From assembly GCF_039655875.1 (NCBI RefSeq), contig NZ_JBBYXK010000002.1, positions 930,001 to 994,000 on the forward strand: a stretch of 64,000 nt of DNA, in the 5' to 3' direction. This document shows, one piece after another, positions 569 through 8,207 of the stretch (the first letter of the stretch is position 1; each line of letters begins with the position of its first letter). The notes below the pieces were generated by a model, which saw nothing but the letters and a program-made list of their open reading frames with translations, made no database searches and had not been told where the DNA came from. The DNA comes from Emcibacter sp. SYSU 3D8. Lineage in GTDB: Bacteria; Pseudomonadota; Alphaproteobacteria; SMXS01. A program made the translations under genes and the position numbers.

Positions 569-3526
569 ATGGGGCATGGGTGGGATGGTGTGATCGGTAC
601 GCAACAGGCATCGAACGGCATGGCCGCGCGAATCGGCGCCTTCGACTGGTCGCGGACTGCGCTCGGGACGCCAGAAGGCTGGCCGGCGCCGCTCAGGACG
701 CTGGTTTCCCTGATGCACGATTCCCACCAGCCCATCTTCATGGCGTGGGGAACCGATCGCACCTGGCTCTACAACGACGCGTTCGCGCCGATCCTCGGCC
801 GCAAGCATCCCGGCGCCCTCGGGCGACCCAGCGAGGAAGTCTGGGGCGAGGCGTGGGACGAGCTGGGGCCGCTGTTCGACCGGGTATTCGCCGGCGAGCC
901 GGTGCACATGAACGACATCAGCCTGATGCTCGACCGGGACGGCCAGCTTGAGGAATCGCATTTCTCGTTCTCATACACGCCGGTGCGTGGCGAACGCGGT
1001 ACCGTCGAAGGCCTGTTCGGAGTCTGTATCGAGACCACGTCCCAGGTGCTGGCGCTGCGCCGCGAGGCCGCGGCGCAGGAGCGGCGGCGCCGGCTGTTCG
1101 AGAATGCGCCGGGTTTCATCGCCATTCTCAACGGCCCCGACCACGTCTACGAGTTCGTCAATACGGCCTATAGACGGCTGCTCGGCGGCCGCGAGCTGCT
1201 GGGCAAGACGGTCCGCGAGGCGGTTCCCGAGCTGGCGGACCAGGGCTTCTACGACCTGCTCGACCGCACCTATGCCAGCGGCGAGCGTTACGTCGCACAC
1301 CATGTGCCCGTGCGCCTGCGGCCGTCGCCGTCGGATCCGCCCGAGACGCGGTTCCTTGACTTCATCTACGAACCGATCATCGACGAGGGCGGCGCCGTCA
1401 CCGGAATCTTCGTCGAAGGCTACGATGTCACCTCGGTCCAGGCCGCTCAGGAAGGATTGCGCGCCAACGAGCGGCGCCAGGCATTGCTGTTCGAGCTGAG
1501 CGACCGCTTTCGCGACAAATCGGACCTGGCCGATCTGTCCCACGAAGCTGGTGAGCTACTGGGCAAGGCGCTGGGCGTGGACCGGGTCGGCTACGGCACC
1601 GTCGATCCGATTGCCGAAACCATCACCATCGAGCGGGACTGGAACGCGCCGGGCATCAGCAGTCTCGCGGGCGTGCTGCACTTTCGTGACTATGGGTCCT
1701 ATATCGAGGATCTCAAGCGGGGTGAAACGGTGGTGTTCGCCAACGCCGAGACCGACCCGCGCACCGCCGCCACGGCCAGTGCGCTCAAGGCGATCAGCGC
1801 CCAGTCGGTCGTCAACATGCCGGTTACCGAGCATGGCGGGCTGGTGGCGCTGCTTTATTTGAACCATTCCACGGCCCGCGAATGGACTGACGACGAGCTG
1901 GCGCTGATCCGCGATGTGGCCGATCGCACGCGCGTCGTCATCGAGCGCCGCCGCGCCGAACGGGAGCTGCAGGCGCTGGCGTCGTCGCTGGAGCGGCAGG
2001 TGGAGGCGCGCACCGCCGAGCGCGACCGGGTCTGGCGCAACTCTCGCGGCTTGCTGGCGGTCCTTGGGCTGGATGGCCGGTTGCGTGCGGCAAACCCCGC
2101 CTGGCGCCCGATTCTGGGGTATGAACCGGCGCAGATAGCGGGCCGGCTGTACCGGGATTTCGCCCTGCCCGAGGACATCGCCGATGTGGACGCGGCGTTT
2201 GCCGCTGCGGCGGGCGGACCGCATGCAAGCTTCGATACCAGGCTGCGCCACGCCGACGGATCGCCGCGCTGGATCTCGTGGCAGACCGCGCAGGAAGGCC
2301 AGCTGATCTATTGCTATGGGCGCGACATCACGGTGGAGAGGGAACAGGCCGAGGCGCTTCGCCTGGCCGAGGAACAGCTTCGCCAGGCGCAGAAGATGGA
2401 AGCGGTCGGCCAGCTGACGGGCGGTCTTGCCCATGATTTCAACAATCTGCTGACCGGCATCTCCGGCAGCCTGGAGCTGTTGCAGACGCGGGTCGCGCAG
2501 GGCCGCTACAAGGAAATCGAGCGTTATGTGGCGGCGGCCCAGGGGTCGGCCAAACGGGCGGCGGCGCTCACCCACCGGCTGCTTGCCTTCTCGCGCCGCC
2601 AGACGCTCGATCCCCGGCCGGTCAACGTCAACCGGCTGATCACCGGCATGGAAGACCTGGTCCGCCGCACGGTCGGCCCGGAGATCACGGTCGAGGTGGT
2701 CTGTGCCGGCGGCCTTTGGACCACGTTCGCCGATACCAACCAGCTCGAGAACGCGTTGCTCAATCTGTGCATCAATGCCCGCGACGCCATGCCCCAAGGC
2801 GGCCGCCTGACCATCGAGACCGCCAATCGGTGGCTCGACGGACGCGGCGCGCGCGAGCGCGACCTGGCGCCGGGCCAATATATCTCCCTGTGCGTGTCCG
2901 ATACGGGCACCGGCATGGCGCCCGAGGTGATCGCCCGCGCCTTCGATCCGTTCTACACCACCAAGCCGCTGGGCGCGGGCACCGGGCTGGGCCTGTCGAT
3001 GATCTATGGCTTTGCCCGGCAGTCGGGCGGCCAGGCCCGCATCTATTCCGAAGAGGGCCAGGGCGCCACGGTGTGCCTCTATCTGCCCCGGCACCTGGGC
3101 GAAGACCCGCCGGATGAGCCAGGCGAGCCGGTCGCCGGGATCGCGCCGGCCGGCGATGGCGAAACGGTGCTGGTCGTCGATGACGAGCCGACAGTGCGCA
3201 TGCTGGTGCTCGAGGTGCTGGAAGAACTCGGCTACCATTCGCTGGAGGCCGTCGACGGCGCCACGGCGCTGAAAATCATCGAATCCGATGCCCGCATCGA
3301 CCTGATGGTGACCGATGTGGGCTTGCCCGGCGGCATGAACGGGCGCCAGATTGCGGATGCGGGCCGCCAGATCCGGCCGGCGCTGAAGGTGCTGTTCATC
3401 ACCGGTTACGCCGAGAATGCTGTGGTCGGGAACGGCCAGCTGGAGCCGGGCATGGAATTGCTGACCAAGCCATTCGCCATGGAAGATCTGGCCGCGCGCA
3501 TCAGGGACCTGGTCGCCAGACCCTAG
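569..3526 (+). CDS. PAS/GAF hybrid sensor histidine kinase with receiver domain
   Basis: This 985-residue protein has no membrane segments and is probably a cytoplasmic sensor. In order I see a PAS domain (about 30-160, beginning with the [15 protein letters not shown] type of start), a second PAS (about 175-285), a GAF domain (about 300-460), a third PAS (about 490-590), a HisKA dimerisation domain with phospho-acceptor His622 in [10 protein letters not shown], an HATPase domain with N-box [10 protein letters not shown] and G-boxes SDTGTGM and GTGLGLSM, and a C-terminal receiver (about 866-983) with acidic pair Asp871/Asp872, phospho-acceptor Asp916 and Lys in LLTKPF. The HisKA type is the NtrB-like GLAHDFNN class common in alphaproteobacterial hybrid kinases. 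No response regulator or output gene adjoins it, so it is an orphan. The ATG has no clear Shine-Dalgarno; an in-frame ATG at 620 is an alternative start. Confidence 0.92.
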
Positions 3527-3770
3527 CCCGCACCAGGCGTGTCGGGCGGGCCAGGTTGCATATGGAAAGCGCAGTCGCGGACACCGTGCCGCCGGACCCG
3601 AGTTTTTCCGCCGTAATCCCCGGCTCGTCGTTACAATGCGGGAACGAGCGCTGCCAAGGCGCCGTTAAGCAAGCGGGAAGGTTTTCCTGATTATCAGACG
3701 TGCGCTGGCGTGTTTTGCGCCCGCGCATTGCGCCGTTTCGATCGGGTTCTGCGATCGGGTCTCAACCCGT

Positions 3771-3799
3771 TTGACAGCAACGCGGAGGCGGCGTTAGAG
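3771..3799 (+). promoter_or_regulatory. Candidate sigma70-type promoter for the Nudix-DUF47/pit operon
   Basis: A perfect TTGACA -35 (3771-3776) is followed after 17 bp by a weak TTAGAG -10 (3794-3799). The predicted transcript would begin only about a dozen bases before the TTG start at 3819. The rest of the 292-bp gap 3527-3818 shows nothing else I can support. Confidence 0.35.
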
Positions 3800-3818
3800 C
3801 AGTCGCGAATTTTTAACA

Positions 3819-4952
3819 TTGGGGTTTACCATCAAGCAGATCGCCGCATTACCGTACAGGGCCACATCGGACGCGCTCGACGCGCCCGTGAGCATCCTGC
3901 TGGTCACGTCCATCGAGACGAAGCGGTGGGTGCTGCCCAAGGGCAATCTGGTGAAGGGCCTGTCCGCGCATGCCTCGGCCGCGCACGAGGCCGAGGAGGA
4001 AGCGGGCATCCTCGGCGCGGCATGCCCCACGTCGATCGGCGCCTACCGGTACCGCAAGAAGCGCAACAACGGCGCCTCGCTGATGGTGGACGTGGACGTG
4101 TTTCCCATCGCCGTCACCGACGAACTGGACGAGTGGAAAGAGCAGGACCGCCGCGAGCGGCGGTGGTTCACGCTGGTCGATGCCGCCGAGGCGGTCGACG
4201 AACCCGAGTTGAAGGATATCATCCGCAGCTTCAAGGCAAGTGAAGTCAATCGCGCCATCAAGGCCGGCCCCCTGGCGAGCGTCAGGGGCGTGGGGAGGGG
4301 ATTTCGGATGTTTCACTGGTTCCAGGCGCTGTTACCGCGCCAGGGCAATTTCTTCGCCCTGTTCGAGGCCCACGCGGTCACCCTCAACGCGGGCAGCGAC
4401 GCATTGGTACGGCTGCTCCAGGGCGGACCGGGCATGCAGGACCACATCACGGAGATCGTCGAGCGCGAGAACGAGGCCGACGACATCATCCGCGAGGTGA
4501 TGCAGACCGTCCGGCGCACCTTTCTCACGCCGTTCGATCGCAGCGCCATCATCAGCCTGATCAGCGCCATGGACGACGCCCTCGACCAGATGCAGCAGAC
4601 CGCCCAGGCGATCAGTCTCTACGAGGTCAAGGAATTCGATCAGGAGATGAAGGATATTGCGGCGATCATCGTCGACGCATCGCGGCTGATCGCCGAGGCG
4701 CTGCCATTGCTGCGCAATATCGGCGACAACGGCGTGCGGCTGCACGAATTGACCGAGCGGCTGGTGAAGATGGAAGGCCAGTCCGACGATATCCATGCAG
4801 CCGGGCTGAAGGCGCTGTTCAAGGCGCACGGCAAGAGCAACACGCTGCACTTCATCGTGGCGCGCGAGATCTACAGCCATCTGGAACGCGTCGTCGACCG
4901 GTTCGAGGACGTGGCGAACGAGATTGACGGACTTGTGATCGATCACGCCTGA
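3819..4952 (+). CDS. Nudix hydrolase fused to DUF47/PhoU-like phosphate transport regulator
   Basis: One uninterrupted frame of 377 codons encodes two full-length domains. Residues 1-140 are a Nudix hydrolase with ILLVTS and VLPKGNLVKGL followed by HEAEEEAGI. The catalytic EE-x-G part of the Nudix box is intact, although the usual first Glu and Arg are Leu and His. The LLVTS...PKG style resembles the diphosphoinositol/diadenosine polyphosphate subfamily. Residues 164-377 are a complete DUF47 protein (MFHWFQALLP, FFALFEAHA), a helical PhoU relative that normally stands alone and accompanies Pit transporters. The next gene is pit, with a one-base TGATG overlap, so a role in phosphate uptake control is very likely. 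The start is TTG without a good ribosome site. An internal in-frame ATG at 4308 has a strong one, so DUF47 may also be made separately. A sequencing frameshift that removed a stop cannot be excluded. Confidence 0.85.
   Translation: MGFTIKQIAALPYRATSDALDAPVSILLVTSIETKRWVLPKGNLVKGLSAHASAAHEAEEEAGILGAACPTSIGAYRYRKKRNNGASLMVDVDVFPIAVTDELDEWKEQDRRERRWFTLVDAAEAVDEPELKDIIRSFKASEVNRAIKAGPLASVRGVGRGFRMFHWFQALLPRQGNFFALFEAHAVTLNAGSDALVRLLQGGPGMQDHITEIVERENEADDIIREVMQTVRRTFLTPFDRSAIISLISAMDDALDQMQQTAQAISLYEVKEFDQEMKDIAAIIVDASRLIAEALPLLRNIGDNGVRLHELTERLVKMEGQSDDIHAAGLKALFKAHGKSNTLHFIVAREIYSHLERVVDRFEDVANEIDGLVIDHA
4293..4310 (+). promoter_or_regulatory. Internal ribosome binding site and ATG at the DUF47 boundary
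   Basis: A purine run GGGGAGGGG lies seven bases before an in-frame ATG (4308-4310), exactly at the conserved start of the DUF47 domain. It is much stronger than anything before the annotated TTG start at 3819. It suggests that a free DUF47 protein of 214 residues is translated from the same message. Confidence 0.6.
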
Positions 4953-5956
4953 TGGAAACGACCATCATCGCCCTGCCGTTGCTGGTGGCGCTCGTTGCGC
5001 TGGCGCTGGCCTTCGACTTCCTCAACGGACTGCACGATGCGGCCAACTCCATCGCCACAGTGGTATCGACGCGCCTTTTGTCGCCGGTGCATGCGGTGGT
5101 GTTCGCCGCGATCTTCAACTTCGCCGCCTATTTCGTGTTCGGGCTGAAAGTCGCCGAGACCGTCGGCAAGGGCATCATCGACAAGGACATCGTCGATCCC
5201 CAGGTGATCTTCGGGGCGCTTATCGGCGCGATGTTCTGGAATGTGGTGACCTGGTGGCGCGGTATTCCGTCGTCGTCCAGCCATGCGCTGATCGGCGGAC
5301 TGATCGGCGCCGGCGTCGCCCGGGCCGGGCTCGACGGCATCGTCTGGCCCGGTGTGATCAAGACCGCCTCGGCCATCATGCTGTCGCCCATGATGGGCCT
5401 GTTCCTGTCGATGTTCCTGGTGCTGGCGACGTCATGGCTGTTCATGCGGGCCACGGCGCGGTCGGCCGAAGGCATCTTCCGCAAGCTGCATCTGGTGTCG
5501 TCGGCAGCCTATTCGCTGGGCCACGGCGCCAACGACGCCCAGAAGACCATGGGCATCATCACCGTGCTGCTCTACTCCCAGGGCATGCTGCAGGGCGAGT
5601 TCCACGTGCCGCATTGGGTAGTGCTCAGCTGCTACCTGGCGATCGCGCTCGGCACGCTGTCGGGCGGCTGGAAGATCATCGAGACCATGGGCACGCGAAT
5701 CACCAAGCTGTCGCACCACCAGGGCTTTTGCGCCTCGGCCGGCGGCTCGGTGATGCTGTTCGCCGCCTCGGCCTTCGGGATTCCGGTCTCGACCACTCAC
5801 ACCATCACCGGCTGCGTCGTCGGCGTCGGCGCGGCGCGGCGGGCATCGGCGGTACGCTGGGGCGTCGCCGGCCGCATCGTCGTCGCCTGGCTGATCACCA
5901 TCCCGGCATCGGCGGCAGTGGGCGCGGTCTTCTATCTTCTGACCAGACTTTTCTAG
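4952..5956 (+). CDS. pit: Pit-family low-affinity inorganic phosphate transporter
   Basis: A 334-residue polytopic inner-membrane protein of the PiT family, which imports phosphate (usually as a metal-phosphate complex) with protons or sodium. The two inverted PiT signature repeats are both present: GLHDAANSIATVVSTR near residue 28 and GHGANDAQKTMG near residue 191. Conserved SSSHA and STTHT motifs follow each half. About ten hydrophobic segments can be counted. It shares a TGATG overlap with the upstream Nudix-DUF47 gene, so it is translationally coupled to its likely regulator. The length is on the short side for the family but the protein is complete. Confidence 0.95.
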   Translation: METTIIALPLLVALVALALAFDFLNGLHDAANSIATVVSTRLLSPVHAVVFAAIFNFAAYFVFGLKVAETVGKGIIDKDIVDPQVIFGALIGAMFWNVVTWWRGIPSSSSHALIGGLIGAGVARAGLDGIVWPGVIKTASAIMLSPMMGLFLSMFLVLATSWLFMRATARSAEGIFRKLHLVSSAAYSLGHGANDAQKTMGIITVLLYSQGMLQGEFHVPHWVVLSCYLAIALGTLSGGWKIIETMGTRITKLSHHQGFCASAGGSVMLFAASAFGIPVSTTHTITGCVVGVGAARRASAVRWGVAGRIVVAWLITIPASAAVGAVFYLLTRLF

Positions 5957-6068: not shown

Positions 6069-8207
6069 TTGAGCAACGCCCCTTCCATCACCCTCGTCGC
6101 CCTCGTCTGCGCGGTGCTGAATGCGCCTGCGACCCTGGCTCAGGAAGCCGGTCCGGCGGACACGGCGCCCGATGCCGCGGGCGACACGGTTGTCGTCACC
6201 GCCACACGCACGGTGCTGCCGCCCAATGCCTTGCCCATGACCATCGATGTCATCGACGCGGTCACCCTCGAGCAGCAGGTGCTCATCAGCGGCTCGATCA
6301 TCGACGCGGTGTCGGCCCTGTCGCCCTCGTTCTCGCCGACCCGGCAGAAGCTGTCCGGATCGGGCGAAACCCTGCGCGGGCGTTCGCCGCTCTACGCCAT
6401 CAACGGCATTCCGCAGTCGACCCCGATTCGCGACGGGTCACGCGATGGCTACACCATCGACCCCTTCTTCATCGACAGGGTGGAGCTGATATACGGCTCG
6501 AATGCCTTGCAGGGCATTGGCGCGACGGGCGGCGTGGTCAACCAGGTGACGGTGGGCGCGCCACGGGAAGACGGCTTCACCGGCCGGATCCTGCTTCAGG
6601 GTACGGCCGACAACGGCTTTTCGGGCGACGGCCTCGGCGGCAAGACCGGCGCGCTGGTAAGCTGGAAAACCGGCCGGTTCGACGCCACGATCGGCGGCAC
6701 CTACGAGACGCGGGGCGCGTTTTATGACGGCAAGGGCAACCGCATCGGCGTCGACGGCACCCAGGGCGAGGTGCAGGATTCCGAAAGCTGGTCGGTGTTC
6801 GGCCGGCTCGGCTTCCAGATCGACGACAGCGCCCGTCTCGAGCTGATCGCCAACCGCTTCGAACTGGCGGGTGACGGTGATTACATCGTCGTGCCCGGCG
6901 ACCGGACCATGGGCATTCCAGCCACCAGCATGCGCGGCAAGCAACCGGGCGTGCCGCCGGTCAATCAGGTCGAGACCGTGGCCCTGTCGTTCATCGATGA
7001 CGACCTGGCCGGCGGCAATTTCGTCGCCCAGCTGTTCTACAACCATTCCGAGGATGTCTTTGGCGGCGGTACTTTCGGCACCTTCCAGGATGCGTCCATC
7101 GCGCCGTTGGGTACGCTGTTCGACCAATCCGCCAACCGCTCGCGCAAATATGGCGGCAAGTTCACCTACGAACGCACCATTGCCGGTGGTCTGCGGGGCA
7201 CCATCGGATTCGACGCGTTGTTCGATCGCACCGAGCAGGTTCTCGCGCTGACCGACCGGGCCTGGGTGCCGCCGACCGAATTTCGAAGCCTGGCGCCGTT
7301 CGGCCAGCTCAACCTGGCGCTGTTCGATGAAACGCTGCGGCTGTCCGGCGGCGTGCGCTGGGAGAACGTACAGCTGAAGGTGGACGATTTCACCACGCTC
7401 GCATTCTACGGCGCGCGGCAGGTCTCGGGCGGGTCGCCCAGCTTCGACGAGCCGCTGCTCAATGGCGGCGTTGTCTACGAGCCCTGGAAGGGCATCCGCG
7501 GCTACGTGTCCTATGCCGAAGGCTATACCGTCGCCGATGTGGGCCGGATCCTGCGCGGCATCACCCAGGAAAATGTCGAAATCGACACCTTCCTCGACAT
7601 CAATCCCGTGGTCTCCAACAACCGGGAAGTGGGCATCGAGGTGGACCGTGGGCCGATCACGGCAAGCGCCACCTATTTCTGGTCGAGCAGCAAGAACGGC
7701 AGCCTGCTAGTGCTGAATGCGGGCGGTGTCTACGATGTCCAGCGCCAGCGCGTCGCCATCAAGGGGCTGGAGCTGAACCTGAAGGCGCGGACACCGGTTC
7801 CGGGCCTGGAAGTGTCCGTCGGCTATGCCCATCTGCGCGGGCGCACCGACAGCGACGGCGACGACATTCTCGATATCGACCTGGACGGCGCCAACATCTC
7901 ACCGGACCGGGTCAACCTGTCCGCGTCATACCGCGACGGCCGGTTCAGCGCGTTGGTGCAGGGCCAGATCTACCTGGCCCGCGATTTCCAGGGCGGCGAC
8001 CCGCGCAACAGTTTCGACGGCTACACACTGGTCGACGCGGCGGTGCGCTATGAGACCGACTTCGGCGGCGTATCGCTCAGCATCCAGAACCTGCTGGACC
8101 GGCAATACATCACCTATTACTCGGACACGACGCGGCCGACCGACGACACCCTGTTCTTTGCCGGACGGGGCCGGACGATCACGCTGGCCTGGGACTACCG
8201 GTTCTGA
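6069..8207 (+). CDS. TonB-dependent outer-membrane receptor, siderophore type
   Basis: A 712-residue outer-membrane receptor. A Sec signal peptide (cleavage likely after ATLA, about residue 24) is followed by a TonB-box-like DTVVVTATR and an N-terminal plug domain (about 45-160) with LRGRSPLYAINGIPQ and VELIYGSNALQG. A beta-barrel of about 550 residues follows, with SVGYAHLRG-like strands and a C-terminal SIQNLLDRQYITYYS...WDYRF, where the last residue is the aromatic expected for BAM targeting. Coupling by one overlapping base to a PepSY-TM protein suggests uptake of a ferric siderophore or similar chelate that is then reduced; the actual ligand cannot be told. The TTG start gives the full signal peptide. 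Confidence 0.93.
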   Translation: MSNAPSITLVALVCAVLNAPATLAQEAGPADTAPDAAGDTVVVTATRTVLPPNALPMTIDVIDAVTLEQQVLISGSIIDAVSALSPSFSPTRQKLSGSGETLRGRSPLYAINGIPQSTPIRDGSRDGYTIDPFFIDRVELIYGSNALQGIGATGGVVNQVTVGAPREDGFTGRILLQGTADNGFSGDGLGGKTGALVSWKTGRFDATIGGTYETRGAFYDGKGNRIGVDGTQGEVQDSESWSVFGRLGFQIDDSARLELIANRFELAGDGDYIVVPGDRTMGIPATSMRGKQPGVPPVNQVETVALSFIDDDLAGGNFVAQLFYNHSEDVFGGGTFGTFQDASIAPLGTLFDQSANRSRKYGGKFTYERTIAGGLRGTIGFDALFDRTEQVLALTDRAWVPPTEFRSLAPFGQLNLALFDETLRLSGGVRWENVQLKVDDFTTLAFYGARQVSGGSPSFDEPLLNGGVVYEPWKGIRGYVSYAEGYTVADVGRILRGITQENVEIDTFLDINPVVSNNREVGIEVDRGPITASATYFWSSSKNGSLLVLNAGGVYDVQRQRVAIKGLELNLKARTPVPGLEVSVGYAHLRGRTDSDGDDILDIDLDGANISPDRVNLSASYRDGRFSALVQGQIYLARDFQGGDPRNSFDGYTLVDAAVRYETDFGGVSLSIQNLLDRQYITYYSDTTRPTDDTLFFAGRGRTITLAWDYRF

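Follow-up and report, generated by a model that had tools for sequence, protein, structure and literature searches.

The window, a 64,000-nucleotide stretch of Emcibacter sp. SYSU 3D8 DNA, contains a gene in which a Nudix hydrolase domain is fused in frame to a DUF47 (PhoU-like) domain and which adjoins the gene for a Pit phosphate transporter. Comparison with relatives lends good support to two predicted features of this Pit-linked fusion: a conserved weak start at an isoleucine codon, and a conserved canonical start within the frame, ahead of the DUF47 half. We see about an even chance that the locus is a phosphate-transport operon making two forms of a PhoU-like (DUF47) regulator of Pit. 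Sequence comparison is the basis for the fusion and its conservation, the codon in the start column, both ribosome-site signals, the linkage of Nudix and Pit genes and the Pho-box-like sites of relatives.

The fusion lies in a frame of 377 codons without a stop (3819–4952, +). Pfam places a NUDIX match at residues 26–136 (E 6e-6; 26.7 bits, cut-off 21.1) and a PhoU_div/DUF47 match (PF01865) at residues 174–374 (E 4e-41; 141 bits, cut-off 24.4). From Pfam, conservation and fold, the Nudix domain extends over 3831–4241 (+), with its box at 3942–4010 and residues Glu57, Glu60 and Glu61 retained. It is followed by a variable linker (4242–4307, +): no alignment column reaches 95% conservation across residues 145–163, and pLDDT falls below 50 at model residues 146–157. 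The DUF47/PhoU_div domain (4308–4952, +), defined by Pfam, opens with its own in-frame ATG at 4308 and would constitute the proposed free DUF47 product. The gene on the 3' side is PHO4/Pit (4952–5956, +; Pfam E 2e-94), whose ATG at 4952 overlaps the fusion stop (TGA, 4950–4952) by one base. The sequence-only reading had recognized a complete Nudix domain in frame with a complete DUF47 protein next to Pit, and both points hold. The single interval it assigned, 3819–5956, does enclose fusion and Pit but covers two genes rather than one, because the DUF47 stop shares a base with the Pit ATG. The neighbours on either side are a PAS/GAF hybrid histidine kinase (569–3526) upstream and a TonB-dependent receptor (6069–8207) downstream of Pit.

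The fusion is real. The window's genome has a single such locus, and 397 genomes of the sphingomonad family that contains Blastomonas genome G394 gave matches in 152, of which 120 span both domains, 119 of them without an internal stop. A sequencing artefact or a stop lost in one genome is therefore excluded, and the two uniformly separate genes that the sequence-only reading had envisaged as the contrary outcome are not what these relatives carry. The other family matches comprise 20 with DUF47 only, one broken frame and a remainder that is mainly the Nudix part. NUDIX and DUF47 Pfam matches (E 0.001) are present in all 79 fused relatives of alignment A1, which holds 79 of the 89 listed references; distinct fused proteins number 126 in total, and a Pit match occurs at 125 of these loci, L003 being the exception. 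Identical proteins were excluded from the 126-row set, as were five loci lacking the N-terminal motif (L132, L141, L146, L147 and L176), and L174, with its broken frame, was never counted as fused with both ends.

In a sample of 385 genomes spread evenly over the class, 76 gave a match, and the spanning form was confined to the genus of the window, where all 4 of the 4 genomes sampled have it; a class-wide fusion was rejected, since Nudix and DUF47 are separate genes elsewhere in this sample. Order-level and family-level searches around the window's genus cover the same 10 genomes. Within the genus, five of seven genomes have the full fusion. G002 (84% complete) has no match, and G003 has the Nudix part only, running into the first DUF47 residues and a stop; DUF47 is otherwise missing, and so is Pit. 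G006 lacks most of Pit. These two losses are visible at L029:5001–5522 (DUF47 plus Pit) and L009:5750–5930 (most of Pit).

The fusion probably starts at ATC 3831 (3831–3833, +) and not at TTG 3819, the start used in the sequence-only reading, in which the probable non-AUG start was missed. A Shine-Dalgarno-like GGGG (3821–3824, +) lies 6 nt before this ATC. Aligned relatives share a conserved N-terminus, xRQIAALPYR, in which codon x is ATT in 53, ATC in 46, ATA in 4, ATG in 17, GTG in 1 and another codon in 5 of the 126 distinct relatives. Among the 103 ATH rows, 56 have no ATG, GTG or TTG between the upstream in-frame stop and codon x, and in 35 ATH rows there is in addition no CTG and the stop falls within 36 nt. 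Thus 56 of the 126 relatives combine an AUH start column and a ribosome site with no canonical alternative; the window itself also has TTG 3819.

Several properties of the start column set it apart from other isoleucine codons. ATT accounts for 53 of the 103 ATH codons at position x, compared with 343 among the 2988 Ile codons at other positions of those frames (Fisher P 4e-22, uncorrected for kinship). The duplex energy with the 16S end averages -6.7 in the 56 ATH rows without a canonical alternative and -6.5 in the other 47 (shuffled, -3.7 and -3.6), and it is -3.2 at 252 internal Ile codons; the 17 ATG-start rows give -5.5 against -4.6 when shuffled. A peak of G at positions -10 and -11 is found family-wide, reaching 83% at -10. 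Codon periodicity begins at codon x, with 1.60, 1.76 and 0.69 bits at the three codon positions over codons 2–10, compared with 0.14–0.24 upstream. In the AF2 model, counted from codon x, the first strand starts at residue 2. On the tree, ATT, ATC and ATA interchange 24 times, and ATH and ATG/GTG only three times. Four of the five rows with another codon at x have an ATG 2–5 codons upstream, and the fifth, L167 (GTC), has no obvious start. As a control, the Pit start is canonical in all 110 loci of the same set that were read, 16 of the 126 rows having no Pit motif.

An upstream canonical start (TTG 3819 here), with the ATH an ordinary internal isoleucine, appears quite improbable to us. It agrees with the presence of some canonical codon upstream in 47 of the 103 ATH rows, including the window (TTG at -12), and with the four basal rows L177–L180, which need no AUH start because a canonical codon lies 1–8 codons before the isoleucine. 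It provides no candidate in the 56 rows described above, and it is at odds with the absence of upstream conservation and periodicity and with the ATT excess. In the window, moreover, TTG 3819 overlaps the very GGGG that would have to serve as its ribosome site.

Apparent non-AUG starts were also seen by eye at infC in 28 Alphaproteobacteria genomes including that of the window (L191–L219; L208 could not be read in frame), with ATA in 24, ATC in 3, ATT in 1 and a GGAG-type site in front; downstream ATGs are not excluded in this count.

The sequence-only reading had also noted an internal ribosome site that might yield free DUF47, and the comparison is consistent with this proposal. A Shine-Dalgarno-like GGGGAGGGG (4292–4300, +; duplex energy -10.9 in L001) would serve ATG 4308. 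In 121 of 123 rows (three lacking the junction motif were left out) a canonical codon, ATG in 98, lies at most 8 residues before a conserved Trp. The mean energy at the internal start is -6.7, with 58% of rows at -6 or better, compared with -3.1 and 13% for 1011 other in-frame ATGs. Ten loci with DUF47 only read ATG at the same position as the start of the gene.

These signals could have a simpler origin. If the locus makes a single fused protein, the internal ATG is merely Met 164 and the Shine-Dalgarno match is a relic of a separate DUF47 gene, as would be expected because the two domains join precisely where free DUF47 begins. The exact Met 164 column is ATG in 91, GTG in 8 and TTG in 4 of the 126 rows, so that other codons do occur there, and the site is weak in some rows, such as the Blastomonas-type L019 and L073. 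Decay of a relic fits less well with a canonical codon kept within 8 residues in nearly all rows, with energies far above those of other in-frame ATGs, and with retention of the site across rows that are only 45–60% identical to the window. We regard the single-protein reading as somewhat unlikely.

The Nudix half retains the residues expected of metal ligands and departs from the family consensus at others. The canonical Nudix box is GX5EX7REUXEEXGU. Glu57 and Glu61 are present in all 126 rows, position 60 is Glu in 123 and Asp in 3, and Gly42 and Gly63 are also retained in the box. Residues 48 and 56, which we take to occupy the box Glu and box Arg positions, are Leu and His in the window; over the 126 rows the first column is Leu in 90 and Met in 18, and the second is His in 41, Gln in 25 and Leu in 14. 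The box of the fusion is thus not canonical. With both of these residues substituted, the domain may have little activity or none.

Nudix-type regulators provide a precedent for ligand sensing without catalysis, and the Nudix half might be such a sensor, without useful catalysis, that passes the state of a phosphate-rich ligand to DUF47 and Pit. The replacement of the box Arg by His, Gln, Leu and others and of the box Glu by Leu or Met would suit this role. Retention of the three Glu residues (with Asp in three rows at position 60) speaks against it: the matching DDP1 substitutions E80Q and E83A block catalysis and leave binding intact, as described in a passage of PMC8064635, and a domain that only sensed its ligand would have no need of them. 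On balance we find a purely sensory Nudix half rather doubtful.

The nearest solved relatives by sequence are diphosphoinositol polyphosphate phosphohydrolases, 16 of 17 PDB sequences (E 0.001 or better) being DIPP or DDP1 and the other MS0616. The AF2 model (pLDDT 89.7, pTM 0.87) places the Nudix half among structures with best Z-scores of 16–18, in which DIPP (17.8 and 17.2), MutT1 (17.0) and Ap6A hydrolase (16.7) are tied. An NCBIfam search returned no Nudix equivalog above its cut-off. The assignment to a polyphosphate/inositol-pyrophosphate-like branch in the sequence-only reading is thus borne out by the nearest sequences, but the fold ties the domain equally to MutT1 and the ApnA hydrolases. 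The excerpted account in PMC8064635 has DDP1 cleaving PP-InsP, polyP and ApnA and names Arg10, Lys18 and Arg20 as substrate residues of DIPP. In the fold comparison, residue 1 of the model falls opposite DIPP1 residue 18, so the fusion appears to lack the part of DIPP before it; residue 3 is Gln in all 126 rows. For the DUF47 half, the best fold is that of the PhoU-like protein 3l39 (BT4638), with Z 30.6 and an rmsd of 1.8 over 207 residues.

Gene content suggests that polyphosphate is a likelier substrate than inositol pyrophosphate. PPK1 was found in 11 of 11 genomes and PPK2 in 12 of 13, so polyphosphate should be available in the hosts examined; PhoU was found in 13 of 13. An IPK-family kinase was found in none of 11 genomes, in a search whose control gave a match in 1 of 14, and inositol pyrophosphate is less likely as the substrate for this reason.

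The association of the Nudix domain with Pit extends beyond the fusion. We collected Nudix relatives (E 1e-3 or better) outside the window's genus, 60 in 55 genomes of the class, together with 60 typed Pit rows, among the matches listed. Among these matches, PHO4 is present in 41 of the 55 Nudix-bearing genomes and absent from 14, and the two genes lie within 3 kb of each other in 34 of the 41 (within 1 kb in 33), the remaining 7 being unlinked. The 34 listed pairs comprise 16 with Nudix then Pit, 11 convergent, 6 with Pit then Nudix and 1 divergent. Four relative orientations, with 11 of 34 listed pairs convergent, indicate that the linkage is not one inherited operon. From the 34 linked cases among the 41 listed, Pit appears to be the general partner of this Nudix group and the DUF47 fusion its sphingomonad form. 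An ordinary house-cleaning Nudix enzyme that plays no part in signalling and came to lie next to Pit through a chance operon arrangement would be compatible with the 7 unlinked cases and the 14 genomes without PHO4 among the matches listed, and clustering alone proves no function. The frequency of linkage and the variety of orientations in the same listed matches make this explanation improbable.

Pho-box-like sites are common upstream of the fusion in relatives. We scanned for two half sites 11 nt apart at a threshold of 10, using a weight table of our own making from the known consensus. A score of at least 10 was reached upstream in 78 of 126 rows, compared with 1% of shuffles (both strands, 150 nt), and the count for one strand is 49 of 126, compared with 0.3% in shuffled sequence and 0 of 126 within the frames themselves. 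The window has a weak site, CAGTCGC-GAAT-TTTTAAC (3800–3817, +), that scores 5.8, below threshold, 31 nt before the proposed start; its siblings score 11.7 at the same place (L002, -31) and 17.3 at -33 (L005). A consensus promoter scan found nothing at 3770–3800. In S. meliloti, phosphate starvation represses orfA-pit, which has a PHO box immediately before the translation start, according to a passage in PMC3131613 that cites Bardin 1998. By analogy, the Pho-box-like sites of most relatives are probably PhoB repression sites. The tie between the Nudix domain and phosphate import advanced in the sequence-only reading is therefore supported beyond this gene by the Pit linkage and by these sites.

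The fusion in the window's genus was probably acquired by horizontal transfer. In an IF3 tree the genus falls outside all 14 sphingomonads included (100/99) and next to G001 (84/91), and its IF3 is 61–68% identical to those of sphingomonads. Its fusion shares 77–78% and its Pit 88–89% identity with the counterparts in Sphingobium arseniciresistens, Aquisediminimonas and UBA6174. When the 126 fused proteins are placed on a tree, the genus nests in a sphingomonad group (97, SH-aLRT only). An IF3 outside the family together with a fusion nested within it is most simply read as horizontal transfer. In the tree of fused proteins L005 stands apart from L001–L004, and no starred branch demands two origins. 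Phage and plasmid origins were considered and rejected, with no intact fusion in the rows examined from 8 phage and 405 plasmid records. Two plasmid records cover 80% of the query. That from R. leguminosarum has DUF47-Pit with no adjoining annotated Nudix gene. That from Lichenicola cladoniae (L221:2471–3796) has a separate NUDIX gene, DUF47 annotated in two pieces, IS110 and IS5 genes nearby and no annotated Pit in the stretch shown.

Other arrangements were observed in the sphingomonad family and related searches. At L186:569–2729 (G530, sphingomonad family), one of the ten loci with DUF47 only, unfused Nudix, DUF47 and Pit genes stand in a row; the separate Nudix gene has its own ATG and a box Arg and lies 45 nt before DUF47, likely a picture of the pre-fusion state. 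At L222:987–2213 (G313), the first half of Nudix is in frame with a Pit lacking its N-terminus at a contig end, either a deletion fusion or an assembly fault. In L223 (G124, contig 119, 17531–20449), two PHO4 matches share one open frame of 1123 codons, possibly a double-Pit protein.

Together, these features suggest how the operon could work. We infer that both starts are used. The first form would be the whole Nudix-DUF47 protein, initiated at a weak codon other than AUG (AUC here; AUU, AUC or AUA in most relatives) and hence probably made in small amounts. The second would be free DUF47 from the internal AUG at 4308, with Pit next in the overlapping frame. DUF47 would act on Pit, and the Nudix half may adjust phosphate import by cleaving a phosphoanhydride close to the transporter, for example polyphosphate or a dinucleotide polyphosphate, with the operon probably repressed by PhoB through the Pho-box-like sites in most relatives. 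Counting against two forms are the non-independence of related rows and the two genomes of the genus that have lost DUF47 and/or most of Pit. More tentatively, the arrangement could be a programmed device, spread across sphingomonads, in which selection has kept the weak AUH start ever since the fusion arose and initiation-factor state sets a small Nudix-tagged share of DUF47, most of it being free. Through the tagged form, phosphoanhydride cleavage would be brought to Pit. This would parallel, in bacteria, the DIPP-dependent phosphate signalling of eukaryotes, the messenger being polyphosphate or a dinucleotide polyphosphate.

Should the non-AUG start be correct, gene callers restricted to ATG, GTG and TTG misplace the start of the fusion across many species, and the survival of a weak start through 24 third-base changes offers a rare natural test of why poor initiation codons persist. 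The Pit-linked Nudix provides an entry to the question of whether bacteria couple a cleavable phosphate-rich ligand to phosphate import. In the open-licence literature searched, we found no report of a Nudix-DUF47 fusion, of Nudix-Pit linkage or of a non-AUG start for the fusion; a conserved non-AUG start is of a known kind, and the present instance is new as far as that literature goes.

The operon resembles S. meliloti orfA-pit in the order DUF47 then Pit and, in most relatives, in a Pho-box-like site near the translation start; it differs in the fused Nudix domain, the probable non-AUG start and the weakness of the window's own Pho box. DIPP and DDP1 are the nearest solved sequences and are among the best folds, and the fusion shares their metal-ligand Glu residues, but it has an altered Nudix box and occurs in genomes of which none of 11 has an IPK-family kinase. 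The DUF47 half is PhoU-like, as is 3l39 (BT4638), which has no Nudix domain. Among bacterial genes, pcnB also has an AUU/AUA/AUC-type start. In S. aureus, non-AUG starts of infC (AUA), cvfC1 (AUU) and ccpN (AUA) are kept in evolution and work at about 10% of AUG, or up to 30% for ccpN in rich medium, as an excerpt of PMC13009471 reports. Like infC, pcnB, cvfC1 and ccpN, the fusion appears to retain a weak start behind a strong ribosome site. Unlike them, it belongs to another pathway, and its weak start opens a frame of two joined domains, within which lies a further start of canonical type.
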